DNA of 26,829 nucleotides from positions 1 to 26,829 of the IMG/VR virus record IMGVR_UViG_3300017991_000084; one strand, 5' to 3'. This document shows positions 14,041 through 25,457 of this stretch, piece after piece; position 1 is the stretch's first letter; each line of letters starts with the position of its first letter. Made by a program: the position numbers and the translations under genes. Origin of the DNA: a virus. The notes under the pieces were generated by a model. It ran no database searches. It saw only the letters and a list, made by a program, of their open reading frames with translations, and was not told the origin of the DNA.

Positions 14041-14071
14041 CGGAGCTGATCCTGATGAAGGATCAGCTCCG
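14041..14071 (-). terminator. Strong 12-bp hairpin without clear U-tract
   Basis: A perfect inverted repeat (CGGAGCTGATCC and GGATCAGCTCCG) with a 7-base loop lies 9 bp after the 49-residue gene. Only GGTTTG follows on the minus strand, so it is a weak terminator at best. It could equally be an mRNA-stabilising or processing hairpin between two gene sets. Confidence 0.5.
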
Positions 14072-14875: not shown

Positions 14876-16255
14876 TTACAGCTGCGCCCGAACGCGAATT
14901 CCCTCAAAATTCCATTCTTTTGTGATTTCGCCGTTCTCGAAGACAGTCACCAACTGATCTTCACCACCACGATCCTGCTGCACGGTACTGAACCCATGGA
15001 CCCCACGGAGAAGCTTCAGACGCCCACGCTTAGACGCCTTGCTGCCATCAATGGGATCTTTGTAGATATCGTACCACGTGCCGTCACGCTTCTGGGCGCT
15101 ACACTTGAACGCGAACCGCTGGGTATCCCGATTGATCTTCTGGAGTAGCCCACCGCCCATGCCGAACGTGGCAATGTTCTCGACGCTCCAGCCCGCATCC
15201 GTGATAGCCACCAGGATCTCCTCGATCTTCTGCTTGTCCAGCCCATCACCCCATAGGACCTTGACCTTCGGATTGATGACCCTGTAACCCTTGCTGTTGA
15301 GTGAGCCACCAAACTTCTCCCAGAGGATCGCCAGCAATCGCAGCACCGTCTCCACCGGATCTCCACTGTCAGGACGCACCACGAACACACCGTCACGCTC
15401 CAGGATCTGCTCACGATAGGTTCCACCGATGATATTCTCCACGGTGTTGTAGATATCGAAACTGTCCGACACCACACTCAGGATGCCTGTAGGATACGCC
15501 TCCAGGAGCTGCCCGATGATCCTCTCTTCACCATCCGGCCCCAAGGAAGTCATGACGCTGTGCTCCGTCGCCGGAACGCTGAAGCCAGCTGCACCCTCGT
15601 GACCGTAGTATTCCTGTGCCGCGACGAGCGCCGCAACCGTATCCGTCCCCTTGAAGTTGATCAGGTGTGCGAGACCACCGATAGCCGCAGCCTCGACACT
15701 GGAGACACCACGGAATCCGAAGTCATGGAGCATGAAGTCCAGAGCCCCATCGTTGTCTGCGGTTTTTTCTGTAAAAACACTGATCATCTTCTTGACTTCA
15801 CGGCTCAACGTAGCCACCGTGCAAGCATGCCACACGTGACACAGAAGAGTTTCCAGGTGATTCGTCAGTGGCGCACAGTGCGGACACGTGTTCTCCACCG
15901 TCATCATGACGTTGCCCACCGGAACGACCGTACCCTCAGGGACTGCCTTGATCCGGATCGGAAGCTTGCCGTCATGGGCGAACCAGATGTGCTCCCACAT
16001 TTTTCTATTGAACAGATCCTTGCTGCCCAAGTGCTGCTCGACCAACAGCTCAGCATCATCGATCTTCGTCTGGGTGACAACCATGCCCTCCAGGTATTCC
16101 TTCAGGAGATACTGAAGGCCGAAGAACACAGTCGAATCGAACTCCGCACCCTCACGAGCCTCGAAGTAGCTGTAGACCGTTTCCGTATCCGGCTGATACT
16201 GCTGCCAATGTGCCAACTTGTAACTGTCTGTCGTCTGAATGATGTTCTTTCTCAT
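14876..16255 (-). CDS. nadV: Nicotinamide phosphoribosyltransferase (Nampt, NadV type)
   Basis: This enzyme makes NMN from nicotinamide and PRPP. The ATG at 16255 has GGAGG 8 bases upstream. The 459-residue length is normal for the family. Family hallmarks are clear: Asp178 in LHDFGFRGVSS, the catalytic His232 in VPATEHSVMTSLG, and Arg294/Asp296 in VVRPDSGDP. It also has the N-terminal TDSYKLAHWQQY signature. It is 33 bp downstream of the NMN adenylyltransferase gene, so the pair converts nicotinamide to NAD+. Comparable gene pairs occur in KVP40-like phages. Codon use looks like that of its neighbours. Confidence 0.95.
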   Translation of the reverse strand: MRKNIIQTTDSYKLAHWQQYQPDTETVYSYFEAREGAEFDSTVFFGLQYLLKEYLEGMVVTQTKIDDAELLVEQHLGSKDLFNRKMWEHIWFAHDGKLPIRIKAVPEGTVVPVGNVMMTVENTCPHCAPLTNHLETLLCHVWHACTVATLSREVKKMISVFTEKTADNDGALDFMLHDFGFRGVSSVEAAAIGGLAHLINFKGTDTVAALVAAQEYYGHEGAAGFSVPATEHSVMTSLGPDGEERIIGQLLEAYPTGILSVVSDSFDIYNTVENIIGGTYREQILERDGVFVVRPDSGDPVETVLRLLAILWEKFGGSLNSKGYRVINPKVKVLWGDGLDKQKIEEILVAITDAGWSVENIATFGMGGGLLQKINRDTQRFAFKCSAQKRDGTWYDIYKDPIDGSKASKRGRLKLLRGVHGFSTVQQDRGGEDQLVTVFENGEITKEWNFEGIRVRAQL

Positions 16256-16288
16256 AGTTCTGTCCTCCAAAACTTTGCATCAACGCAT

Positions 16289-17173
16289 CTATTTGGAATT
16301 CATGAGCATGTCGTACAACGGACGATGCTCCTCAACGATCTTCTCTCTCAAACCTTCCACCTCGATCCAAGCCAGCTCCGAAATATCATCATCCGGCAAG
16401 GGTCTGCCAAACATGTGCTTGGCCTGGAAAAAGGCTGTCACTGTGCCATCCAGCTCCCGACGATACCGCCAGTCATCGATAGGACAGCTGCCCACATACT
16501 GAGGATCTGTGATCTCGATATGGGCCTCTTCCGCGACCTCCCTGCGACATGTTGCTTCCAAGGATTCCCCAGGACTGACGAAACCACCGATGAAACGATA
16601 CAGCTGCTCATTGGGCTTCTTCGCCACCAGAAGATGAGTACACGCCTCATTCCAGATAGCCACGTCCACTGTGGGGAATGTTGTCGGATGCCGATTGTAT
16701 GCTGCCCAGACCACGCCCGCACGGAAACATGGATGTGACTTGACATGAGCGCCAAGCTTCTTCCGCACTATGGTCCCTGATTGGTACACCGACTCCTCGA
16801 TTTCTTCCGTGTCATACTTCCCTGTGTAGTGATCGATGAAGGATTCACGTCCTCCGTAGAGCACCACCGTCGCCATCGGCCCGACTAGATCTCGGATCTG
16901 CTGGTCCAGGTTCTTGCTCCACACGTCATCCGAAGGCACGTCCTTGATATACAATACGTTTACGTTCGGATACCCGTTGAGAATCATCTGCTTCCGGGAT
17001 TCAAAGTCCAGTGGGTTATTGCGCGTCACCCTCGCTGGAGATAGACCCAGAAACAGGAGCACCTTCTCGTGCTTCCGCACCACACTGTTGATCAATTGCT
17101 TGTGTCCCTCGTGCAGCTCATCCACCTGGAATCGCCCAACGAGTACACCGACTTCTGCCACTTCCTGATTCAT
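16289..17173 (-). CDS. nadM: Bifunctional NMN adenylyltransferase / Nudix hydrolase
   Basis: The start at 17173 is chosen for its AAGGAG at 6-base spacing; an in-frame ATG at 17233 lacks a comparable site. The N-terminal half is an NMNAT: GRFQVDELHEGH at 13-24 gives the nucleotide-binding HxGH, and SGTIVR at 132-137 the C-terminal ATP motif. The C-terminal half is Nudix: Gly197-x5-Glu203-x7-REVAEE, complete except that His replaces the late Gly. The NMNAT makes NAD+ from NMN and ATP. The Nudix part in such fusions cleaves ADP-ribose. It works with the adjacent Nampt. Confidence 0.93.
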   Translation of the reverse strand: MNQEVAEVGVLVGRFQVDELHEGHKQLINSVVRKHEKVLLFLGLSPARVTRNNPLDFESRKQMILNGYPNVNVLYIKDVPSDDVWSKNLDQQIRDLVGPMATVVLYGGRESFIDHYTGKYDTEEIEESVYQSGTIVRKKLGAHVKSHPCFRAGVVWAAYNRHPTTFPTVDVAIWNEACTHLLVAKKPNEQLYRFIGGFVSPGESLEATCRREVAEEAHIEITDPQYVGSCPIDDWRYRRELDGTVTAFFQAKHMFGRPLPDDDISELAWIEVEGLREKIVEEHRPLYDMLMNSK

Positions 17174-17239
17174 ACCTGTCTCCTTTCGCATCATCGCATC
17201 TAAAGAAACAATTGTAGGTCTCTTGGTCCTCATTTATTC

Positions 17240-17308: not shown

Positions 17309-17380
<72 letters not shown>

Positions 17381-17385
17381 GCTAA

Positions 17386-17460
17386 TCTGGGTGGGTGGAT
17401 TCGAACCACCGACATCTCGGTTCCAGGCCGAGTAGGCTGACCAAACTGCCCTACACCCAG
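17386..17460 (-). tRNA. tRNA-Pro-like (TGG) with C at position 33
   Basis: The cloverleaf is complete: acceptor CTGGGTG/CACCCAG, D stem GGGC/GCCT, anticodon stem CTCGG/CCGAG, T stem GGTGG/CCACC with TTCGAAT. The anticodon loop is CCTGGAA, so by position the anticodon is TGG (Pro). The base before it is C rather than the near-universal U33, and position 37 is A rather than the G usual in tRNA-Pro. Identity and function are therefore uncertain. No CCA is encoded. Confidence 0.85.
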
Positions 17461-17464
17461 TCAA

Positions 17465-17538
17465 TCTCTGTGGCTGGATTCGAACCAGCGACTTCTCGGC
17501 CCCAAACCGAGCGACATACCAAGCTTGCCTACACAGAG
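17465..17538 (-). tRNA. tRNA-Pro (TGG)
   Basis: The acceptor is CTCTGTG/CACAGAG, the anticodon stem CTCGG/CCGAG and the loop TTTGGGG, giving anticodon TGG with normal U33 and G37. The T arm is GCTGG/CCAGC with TTCGAAT. It starts with C1-G72 as bacterial tRNA-Pro does. It shares the anticodon stem with the neighbouring tRNA at 17460, so the two probably arose by duplication. No CCA is encoded. Confidence 0.92.
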
Positions 17539-17642
17539 CCTATGTATCCTTCCCGAACAAGCTCGTCCCATTTCCGTTCGACAGAAAAATGGCGATACTC
17601 GATCAAGCAGTGATCGAACCCAGCCGGATACTCAGCTGGCAC
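17529..17642 (-). CDS. Possible 37-residue ORF between tRNA genes
   Basis: A GTG-started frame fills the gap between tRNA-Trp and the second tRNA-Pro and overlaps the latter's 5' end by 10 bases. The peptide (EYPAGFDHCLIEYRHFSVER, then KWDELVREGYIGS) looks protein-like in composition. GAGGA lies just before the start but belongs to the tRNA-Trp 3' end. It may be a real small gene, a fragment of one captured between tRNAs, or chance. Confidence 0.35.
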   Translation of the reverse strand: MPAEYPAGFDHCLIEYRHFSVERKWDELVREGYIGSV

Positions 17643-17645
17643 CAA

Positions 17646-17716
17646 CAGATCCTCAAAGATTCGAACTCTGACCCTACGGGTTGGAACCGCAGATGCTACC
17701 GTTACACCAAGGACCT
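17646..17716 (-). tRNA. tRNA-Trp (CCA)
   Basis: The acceptor AGGTCCT pairs with AGGATCT including one G-T pair; the D stem is GTGT/GCAT, the anticodon stem TGCGG/CCGTA and the loop TTCCAAC, giving CCA. The T arm is CAGAG/CTTTG around TTCGAAT. The discriminator is G, as in bacterial tRNA-Trp. No CCA tail is encoded. Confidence 0.9.
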
Positions 17717-17737
17717 GTGTATTCACTTTTCAAATCA

Positions 17738-17794
17738 GAGTAACCTAATCAGCCGTCCCCAGTCCACCACTGGTCACCAACCTTTCGGTTACTC
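17738..17794 (-). ncRNA. Possible structured RNA between tRNA-Ile and tRNA-Trp
   Basis: In the 89 bases between two tRNAs, GAGTAACC and GGTTACTC form a perfect 8-bp outer helix. It encloses CCAGT-GGTGG-ACTGG, a 5-bp hairpin. Alternatively AACC-GAAA-GGTT forms a GNRA-type hairpin using one outer strand. There is no T-arm motif, so it is not a standard tRNA. It could be a degraded tRNA, a processing spacer or a small RNA. Confidence 0.35.
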
Positions 17795-17805
17795 CCTAGG
17801 TGGAA

Positions 17806-17878
17806 TCGGAACACCTGGGATCGAACCAGGAATCTCGCGGTTATCGGCCGCGCGCTCTACCAGTTGAGCCATGCTCCG
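17806..17878 (-). tRNA. tRNA-Ile (GAT) with C at position 33
   Basis: The cloverleaf reads acceptor CGGAGCA/TGTTCCG (one G-T), T8-G9, D stem GCTC/GAGC, anticodon stem CGCGG/CCGCG, loop CCGATAA, and T arm CCTGG/CCAGG with TTCGATC. The anticodon is GAT by position. Position 33 is C, not U, and the perfectly paired stem leaves no room for a shift. It is first in the tRNA cluster, right after the promoter. No CCA is encoded. Confidence 0.9.
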
Positions 17879-20003: not shown

Positions 20004-20078
20004 TGAGGGTGACAGGAATCGAACCTGCACCTTCTGGTTGGAAGCCAGATATGCTAGACCGTTAAACACCACACCCCC
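20004..20078 (-). tRNA. tRNA-Gly (TCC)
   Basis: The acceptor is GGGGGTG/CACCCTC with one G-T pair, the D stem GTGT/GCAT, the anticodon stem TCTGG/CCAGA and the loop CTTCCAA, giving TCC with normal U33. The T arm is GCAGG/CCTGT with TTCGATT. It stands apart from the other tRNAs and its first base is also the last base of the upstream gene's stop codon. No CCA is encoded. Confidence 0.92.
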
Positions 20079-20311: not shown

Positions 20312-20334
20312 CCTTTTTCTCCTTTCGACAGCGC

Positions 20335-20366
20335 GGCACAGGGACGATATGAACTGTCCCTGTGCC
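20335..20366 (-). terminator. Perfect 11-bp hairpin without U-tract
   Basis: GGCACAGGGAC and GTCCCTGTGCC pair perfectly around a 10-base loop, between the genes starting at 20767 and 20311. No T-run follows on either strand. It may be a weak terminator or a processing/stability element. Its 3' side lies only about 10 bases from the next ribosome binding site. Confidence 0.45.
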
Positions 20367-20395
20367 ACCGCCTGTACTCTATCTCACACACAAAG

Positions 20396-20767
20396 TCACC
20401 TCTTTCTCTGTGACTCATCGGCCTGTCGCGCCACTGCTGCGTCTCGCTCCAAGCCCACCATCACCATCATGTAGTCCAGCTCGATCATCACCAGACGTAG
20501 ATCCCTATCGGTGGGATCTGTGCTTTCTTCCCACACACCCACGTCACTTTTCAAGAGACCGAGCCAGTTTCTGGTCTCCATAGACACCCATGGCTGCTCA
20601 AAAACCTTCTCACCCATCATCAGGATGCCCTTCTTCGCACCGAATATGCAGCACTTGTTCAGGGCTCCATTGACTTGTTCCATTTCATACGGAGAAGGAT
20701 CATGGATCACTTTCTGCGGAGCCTTATTCTCATCACCACAACTAGGGTCGATGGGTCCAAACAACAT
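20396..20767 (-). CDS. Hypothetical protein
   Basis: A 123-residue protein whose ATG overlaps the upstream stop (TGATG) with GGAGGG upstream. It contains a Cys pair (NKCCIFGAKKGILMMGEKVF) and a helical Met-rich segment (LRLVMIELDYMMVMVGLERD). No membrane segment is convincing. I do not recognise it. Confidence 0.6.
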   Translation of the reverse strand: MLFGPIDPSCGDENKAPQKVIHDPSPYEMEQVNGALNKCCIFGAKKGILMMGEKVFEQPWVSMETRNWLGLLKSDVGVWEESTDPTDRDLRLVMIELDYMMVMVGLERDAAVARQADESQRKR

Positions 20768-21063: not shown

Positions 21064-21106
21064 ACTACCACTCCTACGAACTCAAACGCACGATTGTTCA
21101 CCAAAA

Positions 21107-21403
21107 TCAGCGACTACGATGAATAGTCATCAATCGGTCATGTAACGCGCGCTCCATCCGACTCATGCACCCATAGGCGATTGACGCCTTGCCCACCAGC
21201 ACCACGATGAAGCCAGGAATCATCCCCAACTCAAAGAAAACCGCCCGGATGATGCCCCACACCACCGCCGAATTGTTGACACCCCAGTTCGTGACCGCTG
21301 CCATGATGCCACCATACAACATGACATAGATGCCCAGCCAGAACACCAGACCGATCCCACCCAGGATCAGCAACAAACCAAAAATCACAGCGAACTTTCT
21401 CAT
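21107..21403 (-). CDS. Membrane protein with three hydrophobic segments
   Basis: The start MRKFAVIFG at 21403 has GGAG 8 bases upstream. The 98-residue product has hydrophobic segments at about 4-22, 24-40 and 51-72, with a basic C-terminus (SRMERALHDRLMTIHRSR). A holin-like role is possible for a protein of this size and topology but is not shown. It overlaps the upstream Zn-ribbon gene by 4 bp. Confidence 0.6.
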   Translation of the reverse strand: MRKFAVIFGLLLILGGIGLVFWLGIYVMLYGGIMAAVTNWGVNNSAVVWGIIRAVFFELGMIPGFIVVLVGKASIAYGCMSRMERALHDRLMTIHRSR

Positions 21404-22138: not shown

Positions 22139-22411
22139 TCAATCTCCCAAGGATAAGAATGCTATGATCTCAACAGGCTGTGAACCATCCTTCACATGCT
22201 CCAACACGCCACTCTGTGTGTAGGCACTCAGAAGAATCTCAGGACTTTCCTCTTCCAACGCCTCTCCCACCATGCAGCGAACCTCATAGCACCACTTGCC
22301 GAAGCTGTAGCCAGCTGGGAGAGACTCAATTTTCTGGAAAAAAGCCTCAGATACCAGATGGAAGCAGTAGTCTCCACCGCCCAAGTCGCTCATAATCACG
22401 GCACACTTCAT
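22139..22411 (-). CDS. Hypothetical small protein
   Basis: A 90-residue soluble protein with GAGGTG before the ATG, overlapping the upstream gene by 4 bp. It begins MKCAVIMSDLGGGDYCFH and contains a helical centre (VGEALEEESPEILLSAY). I do not recognise it. The fold looks alpha/beta. Confidence 0.6.
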   Translation of the reverse strand: MKCAVIMSDLGGGDYCFHLVSEAFFQKIESLPAGYSFGKWCYEVRCMVGEALEEESPEILLSAYTQSGVLEHVKDGSQPVEIIAFLSLGD

Positions 22412-22858: not shown

Positions 22859-23386
22859 TCAACGCACAGGTTTCGGACGAGGAATGCCATTCCGCTCACC
22901 GATGGCTTCCACCGCCTCTTTGGCTTCCTTCAGGCCCGCATGTGTGGCCTCACGATACAACTTGATTGCCGGAATCTTGCGCCCACTTCTCAGCTCCGCA
23001 AGAATCCGCTCCTCCAGATCCGAAGTCAGATTGAGGAAGAAATTCCCCAGTCCCGCTCTCTTTACCGCACTCACAAATTCCTTGGGATTCGTCGCAATCA
23101 GATGCATGAGCAACAAAGAGATTGCCGACTGACTGACCTGACCTGATGTAATCGCATGGTAGACACCGAGCGACTGGTTCTGGGCAATTCGGTTCTCCTG
23201 GATAATGCCCATATCCTCAGCCCTTCGCTCCAGTGAAATCAGACGCCTATCCAAATCAACCAGATTACAGCGTGCTGTCTCCAGAGCACTCTGCGCCGAC
23301 GCTCGCTCTGCATTCGCCACGTGCAGCTCCTTCTCCAACTCCACAATCCGATCTTTCAACTGCTGTTTCGTAGGCTGATTAGCCAT
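22859..23386 (-). CDS. Coiled-coil protein with L7/L12-like C-terminal segment
   Basis: The start MANQPTKQQL at 23386 has GAGGAG 7 bases upstream. The 175-residue protein has a coiled coil at about 5-65, a helical middle, and a C-terminal segment (RKIPAIKLYREATHAGLKEA, then KEAVEAI) closely resembling the helical part of the ribosomal protein bL12 C-terminal domain, which recruits translation factors. The coiled coil could mimic the dimerising N-domain. A role in modifying translation is speculative. Confidence 0.6.
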   Translation of the reverse strand: MANQPTKQQLKDRIVELEKELHVANAERASAQSALETARCNLVDLDRRLISLERRAEDMGIIQENRIAQNQSLGVYHAITSGQVSQSAISLLLMHLIATNPKEFVSAVKRAGLGNFFLNLTSDLEERILAELRSGRKIPAIKLYREATHAGLKEAKEAVEAIGERNGIPRPKPVR

Positions 23387-23543
23387 CTTCATTCTCCTCA
23401 GGGTAGGTAAGGTCGGTGAAGATCCCAACAAAGGTATCTCCAAGATGAGCCTTGTTCGCTTGACAGATGAAGATCGCTCCATACCTGTCAGCGTTGGCCC
23501 CACACACTGTACACCGTACTGCGTTTTCTACGACCTCTTCCAT
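23379..23543 (-). CDS. Small Cys-containing protein, 54 residues
   Basis: The frame starts at ATG 23543 with GGAG 5 bases upstream and overlaps the next gene by 8 bp. It carries a CTVCG knuckle at residues 11-15 plus a later Cys (FICQANKAHLG) and an acidic C-terminus (YPEENEDG), resembling part of a zinc site. It sits between two confident genes and fills the gap. I do not recognise a family. Confidence 0.6.
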   Translation of the reverse strand: MEEVVENAVRCTVCGANADRYGAIFICQANKAHLGDTFVGIFTDLTYPEENEDG

Positions 23544-23888: not shown

Positions 23889-24100
23889 CAGTCCGTCTCC
23901 CGATTCTGCCCATCTGCCAGAGGATCGTCATCGTACCACTCGTCCTCCGGATAGTCCTCTGCCACTTGTCGGCACAGCTCAATGAAACGCGCCCGCTCAC
24001 GGTCCTCAGCTTCACTCATCTTATCATCATCCAGATGACTGATGCAATCCTCCATGTCCTGAATCGTGTTGTGAAATCGATAGTAGACTACACTACCCAT
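23888..24100 (-). CDS. Small acidic hypothetical phage protein
   Basis: The start MGSVVYYRFHNTIQDM at 24100 has GAGGAG 7 bases upstream. The 70-residue product is acidic and helical (SEAEDRERARFIELCRQVAE). The YYRFHNT...L..L start is a pattern I recall from uncharacterised phage proteins. Its function is unknown. It overlaps the upstream gene by 8 bp. Confidence 0.6.
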   Translation of the reverse strand: MGSVVYYRFHNTIQDMEDCISHLDDDKMSEAEDRERARFIELCRQVAEDYPEDEWYDDDPLADGQNRETD

Positions 24101-24362
24101 TGGGAATCTCCTCATCAGTGAACATCGGACGATAGAATGCCTCCGGGCAATTCTCATCGATCCACCTCACCACCGTGTGCCGCACACCCATCCAGATCGC
24201 CACAATCATCTGAGGAGGATATGCCGTTAGCGGCTCCTGCCACACCTTGTCCTCGATCTCCGGATGAGTCTCCTTGTAGATCTTCATCACGGCATCCACG
24301 TTCTTGTCAGGCCACAAACCATGCTCGGCCAACAACGTTCGAATCTTCTGCTCAACGGTCAT
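24093..24362 (-). CDS. Hypothetical small protein
   Basis: The start MTVEQKIRTLLAEHG at 24362 has GGAG 9 bases upstream. The 89-residue helical protein (KNVDAVMKIYKETHPEIEDK, then YPPQMIVAIWMGVRHTVVRW) has no recognised family. It is the first gene after the structured non-coding stretch and so may be expressed from, or downstream of, that RNA. Confidence 0.6.
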   Translation of the reverse strand: MTVEQKIRTLLAEHGLWPDKNVDAVMKIYKETHPEIEDKVWQEPLTAYPPQMIVAIWMGVRHTVVRWIDENCPEAFYRPMFTDEEIPNG

Positions 24363-24454
24363 ACGCTCATTCTCCAAAAAGGTTCGTTGGCACATGCAAG
24401 GAAACCGCAAACACCTAATAACCCACCCACCTCACCTATAAAGGCAAGATGACG

Positions 24455-24699
24455 GCGAGACCAGCTTTTAGGTCCCGCTTTGGCCCGCGACAGCCCGACC
24501 GATTTAGGAGCTACCTCGCGTAGTAGAACTCTCCCTTTGTCGGCCCTGAGCCTGCGACTTCCCTGCACATACCAAAGAACATTCCGCTGATGGCAACTAG
24601 GTCCCTTCACCCACGCCCGTACTTTCGAGCTTCCCACCGCAACGCGACTTCGAGTCCGTCCACGGTAACCAAGCAGTGACCCCACACTGCCGAAGCTCG
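24455..24699 (-). ncRNA. Candidate structured non-coding RNA
   Basis: The 368 bases from 24363 to 24730 carry no convincing gene. Three helical domains pair on the minus strand. (1) CGAGCTTC (24692-24699) pairs with GAAGCTCG (24626-24633), enclosing a GCAGTG/CACTGC hairpin and a GACT/AGTC hairpin under ACCG/CGGT: a three-way junction. (2) GGCCGA (24540-24545) pairs with TCGGTC (24497-24502), enclosing GGAG/CTCC and CTAC/GTAG. (3) GCGGGACC pairs with GGTCTCGC (24455-24478) around an 8-base loop. It may be read through from the promoter at 25253. I do not recognise an RNA family, and no T-arm or tmRNA/RNase P motif is visible. Confidence 0.5.
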
Positions 24700-24730
24700 C
24701 CACCAACTACCCACGCCGCAACCATTATCG

Positions 24731-25216
24731 TTACGCGACTGCCAACGCCCTCGCCTGCCTCGGCCTCTTAAAGAAACCGAACTTCGGATTGTCGTCAGCC
24801 TGCACCACATTCGCCACAAACGTCACATGAGCGCCCACCGGAAGCTCACCCAAGGATTTGGGGACCGAACCCCACACCTTGAAGCCACGGTCATCCTGCA
24901 CAGTCATCTTCAGGACCATGCCGAACTGAGTATCGCGCCACTTGACCGACAGGACCTCACCAGTGATCTGAATACCATTACCCACGACCACATCAGGAGC
25001 ACTCGCCTCTTCCAGCCTGCTCTGCTCAATTCTCTGCCGATACCAGAAGTTCTTGATGGCCGCTACAATCACCGCAGCGCCCTGCTTCTCGCTCAGACTA
25101 CCGAACCGATTCAGCTTGACCTTGATGTCATACAGGAACTCATTGTCATTGACCAGCTCACTGTTCAGAATCGACATCACGACAGGGTTGTCCGCTCTGT
25201 AGTTTCGTTTCGCCAT
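24731..25216 (-). CDS. OB-fold-like nucleic-acid-binding protein
   Basis: A 161-residue protein with GAGGAG 7 bases before the ATG, first after the promoter and its leader. Residues 1-65 are helical (SLSEKQGAAVIVAAIKNFWY). Residues 75-161 (GNGIQITGEVLSVKWRD, MVLKMTVQDDRGFKVWGSVP, VGAHVTFVANV, PKFGFFKRP) match an OB-fold-like domain I recall from phage replication or repair-associated proteins. Nucleic-acid binding is likely but inferred. Placement behind a sigma70-like promoter suggests non-late expression. Confidence 0.7.
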   Translation of the reverse strand: MAKRNYRADNPVVMSILNSELVNDNEFLYDIKVKLNRFGSLSEKQGAAVIVAAIKNFWYRQRIEQSRLEEASAPDVVVGNGIQITGEVLSVKWRDTQFGMVLKMTVQDDRGFKVWGSVPKSLGELPVGAHVTFVANVVQADDNPKFGFFKRPRQARALAVA

Positions 25217-25252
25217 GGTTCAGCTCCTCAAAGGGTTTCGGCTTACACTTAA

Positions 25253-25280
25253 AGTATACGCCATATGCCTTGAGAAGCAA
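25253..25280 (-). promoter_or_regulatory. Sigma70-like promoter
   Basis: On the minus strand TTGCTT, a 16-base spacer and TATACT precede the OB-fold gene. The -10 region (GCGTATACTTTAAGTG) is nearly the same as at the tRNA cluster (17887). It may also drive the structured RNA and the genes beyond it, since no terminator is seen between. Confidence 0.7.
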
Positions 25281-25286
25281 ATCATT

Positions 25287-25457
25287 TTATGGAAAAAGTG
25301 CGTCCTTCATGACATCGATCTCTTCCTGCAACGCCGTCAGGTCCTGGTAGATCTGCTGCTTGTCTACGCTCATGTCCGCAAACAGAGCACGAACCGCCAG
25401 CATAGCCTCAGCAAACAGCCTCCTCTCCGCTCTCCCATGTGCCATTGGATGGTCCAT
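25287..25457 (-). CDS. Small helical protein, 56 residues
   Basis: The frame starts at ATG 25457 in a TGATG overlap, with GAGGAGG 7 bases upstream, and ends at TAA before the promoter. The peptide is helical (RRLFAEAMLAVRALFADMSV) and ends in a charged coiled-coil-like segment (LTALQEEIDVMKDALF). I do not recognise it. The strong ribosome binding site makes it credible. Confidence 0.65.
   Translation of the reverse strand: MDHPMAHGRAERRLFAEAMLAVRALFADMSVDKQQIYQDLTALQEEIDVMKDALFP

Follow-up and report, generated by a model that had tools for sequence, protein, structure and literature searches.

Two large, ornate RNAs, GOLLD and ROOL, are found in phages and prophages (PMC12286853). Few known RNAs are as complex as large structured phage RNAs of this kind, which are still without a function (PMC12286853). 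In the present work, we examine a window consisting of bases 1–26,829 of the 90,829-base record of an uncultured virus, hereafter called G000, in which the minus-strand stretch 24707–24382 plausibly represents a novel functional RNA. Like GOLLD and ROOL, this stretch is non-coding, multi-domain and highly structured, with possible loop–loop contacts, and its phage also has a tRNA cluster (17.3–20.1 kb). Unlike them, it has no Rfam match, it is about 326 nt long whereas many GOLLD RNAs exceed 800 nt, and it is not sited in a tRNA island, the nearest tRNA being 4.3 kb away. In length, family structure and location it falls outside both families.

The packaging RNA (pRNA) of phi29 is another structured phage RNA with hairpin loops. 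The present RNA differs from it by the lack of an Rfam match and by not lying beside the terminase gene, which is found at about 53–55 kb of G000. With riboswitch and attenuator leaders it shares a multibranched domain, closed by a helix called P1, just upstream of an SD, and a U5 tract after P1. In contrast to such leaders, however, no known class is matched, P1 is far longer than a switching helix, and the SD is predicted to be free. The long terminal helix around hairpins is also found in the ncRNAs of retrons and DRTs and in the omega RNAs of IscB/TnpB. No Pfam RVT_1 domain could be found anywhere in the 90.8-kb record, so no cognate RT of the kind that goes with a retron or DRT ncRNA is seen, and both neighbours of the RNA are small proteins, not nucleases.

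G000 is a tailed phage that encodes a terminase, a family A-type DNA polymerase, an RNA ligase, RtcB and NAMPT. A first-pass annotation, made from the letters of the window, had described positions 24363–24730 as gene-free, and the calculations agree with this. The 368-base gap separates two minus-strand genes and is bounded exactly by the stop codon of one, P0001 (24731), and the ATG of the other, an 89-aa gene (24362). A codon model was trained on 25 G000 genes; it gives negative log-odds for each of the six frames of the gap, while genes scored in the same way give +0.19 to +0.72 per codon. A missed coding sequence would have to be either a 115-aa ORF with a TTG start (24359–24706), which does offer 115 open codons and an ATGA overlap with the next gene, or a frameshifted pseudogene. 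The ORF, however, scores −0.19 per codon, and in every 90-nt minus-strand window of the gap the best of the three frames lies below the 1st percentile of real-gene windows. The ORF is therefore not a gene and its ATGA end is coincidental, and the window scores make a frameshifted pseudogene also unlikely. We consider a missed coding sequence very improbable altogether: a protein frame through the stretch had been named beforehand as one of three objections, but no frame gives a coding signal, and the gap lacks coding potential, as is generally expected for a structured non-coding RNA.

We now consider the folding of the minus strand, whose main elements are the following.

24382–24707, minus strand: structured RNA composed of two adjacent multibranched domains, with ends placed from the fold
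24382–24580, minus strand: 3′ domain closed by P1 (z −6.2, 0 of 1500 shuffles; from the pair list)
24497–24545, minus strand: predicted P2/P3 hairpin with an internal loop and the 6-nt loop ACGCGA (pair probabilities about 0.8–0.9)
24482–24495, minus strand: P4, a weak 4-bp hairpin with the loop GUCGCG, from the fold
24455–24478, minus strand: P5, an 8-bp hairpin, from the fold
24427–24452, minus strand: P6, an 11-bp hairpin with a UAUA loop, from the fold
24376–24380, minus strand: U5 tract, one base past P1, read from the sequence
24586–24707, minus strand: predicted 5′ domain, an 11-bp helix (24707–24697/24596–24586) around four hairpins (z −3.07, 2 of 500 shuffles)

The energies were compared with those of dinucleotide shuffles, and both the z-score and the number of shuffles that were as stable or better were recorded. 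The minus strand of the whole 368-nt gap has an MFE of −152.1 kcal/mol, with z-scores of −3.6 to −3.8. Trimmed to the part that pairs, 24707–24382 (326 nt), it has an MFE of −149.4 and a z-score of −6.44, with 0 of 300 shuffles as stable, and for the inner 209 nt closed by P1 the z-score is −6.2 (0 of 1500). The plus strand folds weakly, with z −1.4 for the 368 nt and z −2.2 for the 209 nt. Among the 725 minus-strand windows of 250 nt spanning the whole of G000, 24376–24625 takes rank 2. The window at rank 1, the most stable in G000, holds a plain and perfect 13-bp hairpin at about 14043–14071 on the minus strand, GGAGCTGATCC..GGATCAGCTCC. The first-pass annotation had suspected folding beyond chance and had proposed the comparison with shuffled controls; the energy indeed lies outside the shuffled range, and it does so on the transcribed strand.

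The helix P1 connects 24580–24550 with 24412–24382 by 30 pairs, eight of which are G-U, and has one mismatch. With one mismatch allowed, no longer helix was found in the 90.8 kb of G000; the longest ones in 12 locally shuffled minus strands reach at most 19–27 pairs. The eight G-U pairs, which become A-C mismatches on the plus strand, and the weak fold of the plus strand indicate an RNA signal and not a DNA palindrome. The signal thus resides in RNA, on the strand from which both flanking genes are transcribed. Inside the 3′ domain, it can be speculated that UCGCG of the P4 loop pairs with CGCGA of the P3 loop over 5 bp. The U5 tract could possibly be a 3′ end or a partial terminator.

The 5′ domain requires some comment. 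It was here that the first-pass annotation had placed its emphasis, on a three-way junction in which GAGCTTC/GAAGCTC closes two hairpins. The junction is indeed obtained in the MFE structure of the isolated stretch, but by itself (111 nt) it is unexceptional, with z −1.6, and in longer context it competes with the 11-bp helix 24707–24697/24596–24586, so that it is one of two alternative folds. Two hairpins are common to both. In our models, the fold of the 5′ domain is less certain than that of the 3′ domain, and it is the P1-closed 3′ domain, not the three-way junction, that appears as the best-supported part. The wider proposal of a novel structured phage RNA stands in that the stretch is non-coding, structured, located behind a promoter and without an Rfam match.

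As to known families, Rfam 15 was searched, including tmRNA, RNase P, 6S, SRP, tRNA, GOLLD, ROOL, OLE, raiA and riboswitches. At gathering score it gives six tRNAs in the window and nothing in the gap, and at E-values up to 10 there is still no match in the gap, two sub-threshold snoRNA matches outside it being due to chance. ARAGORN detects no tRNA or tmRNA in the gap; tRNAs are found at 17309–17878 and 20004–20078 only, and there is no tmRNA. The former stretch is a minus-strand cluster of Met, Pro, Pro, Trp and Ile, and the latter a separate tRNA-Gly, also on the minus strand; the RtcB and RNA ligase genes are elsewhere in the record than the cluster. The earlier statement that the stretch resembles none of tmRNA, RNase P, 6S, SRP and tRNA is in line with these results, and the Rfam search suggested along with it returned no family for 24363–24730.

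The surroundings of the RNA are made up of three elements.

25253–25280, minus strand: promoter, TTGCTT (25280–25275), a 16-nt spacer and TATACT (25258–25253), within the repeat 25224–25300
24731–25216, minus strand: P0001, 161 aa, the first gene of the module, with N-terminal helices and a predicted C-terminal OB fold
24093–24362, minus strand: all-helical orphan protein of 89 aa, directly behind the RNA, with the SD GGAG at 24375–24372

The promoter is part of a repeat of about 75 nt (25224–25300, minus strand) that contains TTTGCAT, GTATACTTTaGGTgTA and a closing SD, TTTGAGGAG, which is GAGGAG in the copy of the window. Further copies are located at 36349–36291, 34530–34472, 27401–27330 and 86413–86359 in G000, and at 21092–21154, 22303–22364 and 24518–24588 in G001, a relative introduced below. 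The sigma70-like promoter noted in the first-pass annotation is thereby recognized as a member of a family of phage repeats, and no terminator-like site was found on the minus strand between 25280–25253 and the RNA, just as had been stated.

The AF2 model of P0001 has a pLDDT of 87, and its Foldseek matches are IF-1, RPA, PriB and SSB, by which the protein is predicted to be a nucleic-acid binder. Distant homologues occur in 351 phage records. At the 37 loci that were checked, the next ORF begins 0–138 nt downstream, without a comparable gap, which means that the P0001 family is not generally tied to such an RNA. The 89-aa gene has a codon log-odds of +0.72 and an AF2 model with a pLDDT of 80, and no convincing homologue of the protein was found. 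Farther along, at 22859–23503 (minus strand), a 214-aa protein has a match to the C-terminal domain of ribosomal L7/L12 with a Pfam E-value of 7.9e-6, just over the cut-off.

Relatives of the phage were sought by gene. The DNA polymerase gave none, the protease distant ones, and the terminase alignments gave G001 (IMGVR_UViG_3300035698_013868, 46.6 kb) and others, while with the cytidyltransferase/NUDIX gene G001 alone is close. This last gene follows that of NAMPT at 14876–17233 (minus strand), the two constituting a phage NAD-salvage pair that is kept in G001. G001 is collinear with G000, and the terminases are 83% identical. The gene downstream of the 89-aa gene in the window has an orthologue in G001 that directly follows a copy of the promoter. 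P0001, the RNA and the 89-aa gene hence form one module of about 1.1 kb, which is present in G000 and missing from G001 through insertion or deletion. Being missing from a syntenic relative, the RNA is therefore either dispensable or recently acquired.

Homologues of the RNA were searched for in several ways. With blastn against phages and plasmids, the RNA itself and short chance matches were obtained, nothing more. Neither nhmmer and word-7 blastn on the collected loci nor a search of 29 related records gave an RNA homologue, and a single-sequence covariance model, R1, applied to about 50 related virus records and to the pattern matches, found the RNA itself only. A gapped loop motif had matched three stretches in viral_contigs and six in genome_contigs, but these are not supported by R1 and are considered chance matches. 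The orphan character of the sequence and its absence from G001 would fit a structure that has no function as RNA, i.e. a stable fold of a spacer, coming from a recent acquisition or being the relic of an unrecognised element, and not under selection. Such a fold would, however, have to be reconciled with z-scores below −6, with a G-U-rich, strand-specific helix that is the longest of G000, and with the retention of 368 non-coding bases in spite of the compactness of the phage genome. We consider this scenario unlikely.

By means of a helix scan and an energy scan of G001, we could pinpoint a second structured RNA, at 36828–36600 (minus strand) in G000, 12 kb from the first, with its orthologue at about 20330–20545 (plus strand) in G001. 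A copy of the phage promoter immediately precedes it and the SD of a small gene immediately follows; it has a z-score of −6.6 in G000 and no match in Rfam. In the two-sequence alignment of G000 and G001, all 53 of the 53 modelled pairs are kept, with 16 double compensatory changes, a figure that falls to at most 3 when the partners are slid by one column. A 7-nt T-loop-like hairpin (TGCAACT) can be recognized in it by eye, together with two GAUC hairpin loops that are able to pair with one another over six positions in both phages. A similarity to motifs of the cobalamin riboswitch was considered and dropped, since it has no support from Rfam and the motif is the T-loop-like hairpin. The energy outlier at 42251–42500 of G001 looks on inspection like repetitive coding sequence. 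Judged from the alignment, the second RNA is better proven than 24707–24382, and its compensatory changes indicate that this phage lineage does make such RNAs.

The two RNAs have similar outlines, with a long P1 of comparable span (26 pairs, 36805–36612, span 193 for the second; 30 pairs, span 198 for the first), a multibranched core, and an SD immediately downstream. In both, hairpin loops could kiss through palindromes, GAUC in the one case and CGCG in the other. One may therefore ask whether 24707–24382 is a divergent paralogue of the second RNA, the two making up one new class with two members. When the first RNA is scanned with R2, the covariance model of the second, the score is 5.6 bits and the long helix alone is aligned; the model of the first gives background on the second. 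The inner hairpins also differ in order and sequence. By these comparisons the two RNAs are not detectably homologous, and we regard a common class as improbable, even more so than a fold without function.

The main rival to an RNA with a role of its own is an element that acts in cis within the P0001 operon. As a leader, an attenuator or a processing structure, it would determine how strongly the 89-aa gene and those after it are expressed, or how stable their mRNA is. In favour of this, the RNA lies immediately against the SD of the gene that follows, the U5 tract after P1 resembles the end of a long-range terminator stem, and the second RNA likewise has a promoter on one side and the SD of a small gene on the other. 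Moreover, in the MFE structure of 24730–24300 the start codon is paired with bases just past the P0001 stop. In this 431-nt fold, however, the SD of the 89-aa gene is predicted to be unpaired (0.79–0.87), and the pairing of the start codon, strong in that one fragment, is gone as the flanking context is extended; the native value is then 0.71 unpaired, compared to 0.47 on average after shuffling of the RNA region. Sequestration of the start codon was consequently discarded, and no switch-like alternative fold at this codon held as the context was lengthened. In addition, a 30-bp helix would be a poor switch, and no anti-terminator is seen. The predicted free SD and the lack of stable pairing of the start codon in longer context weaken the cis-acting alternative, which we nevertheless consider possible, although doubtful.

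Our preferred interpretation is that 24707–24382 on the minus strand is a real structured RNA of no known family that works as RNA, in the form of a scaffold or RNP, and to this we assign an even chance. It would belong to an optional module comprising the OB-fold gene, the RNA and the gene for the small helical protein, and would be transcribed from the phage-type promoter. As a two-domain scaffold or RNP, it would either be kept in the P0001–RNA transcript or be cut out of it. Its 3′ boundary would be at the base of P1 and the U5 tract, and P0001, being encoded alongside, would be the obvious candidate for a partner. That the RNA accumulates, where its ends are, and any partner or function are points that we infer from the sequence and its models.

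A bolder interpretation, which we put forward tentatively and with distinctly less confidence, is that large structured RNAs not described before, at least two in number (24707–24382 and 36828–36600), are encoded by the lineage, with closing helices of about 30 and 26 bp and multibranched cores, and that the one in the window shares an optional cassette with an OB-fold RNA-binding partner of its own, being a new phage RNP. A shorter example, unrelated to GOLLD and ROOL and neighbouring an OB-fold gene, in a phage with a second RNA that is proven by covariation, would provide small objects on which roles as RNP scaffold, host-takeover factor or regulator can be tested. The present case also shows that strong RNAs invisible to family libraries are present in single uncultured genomes.
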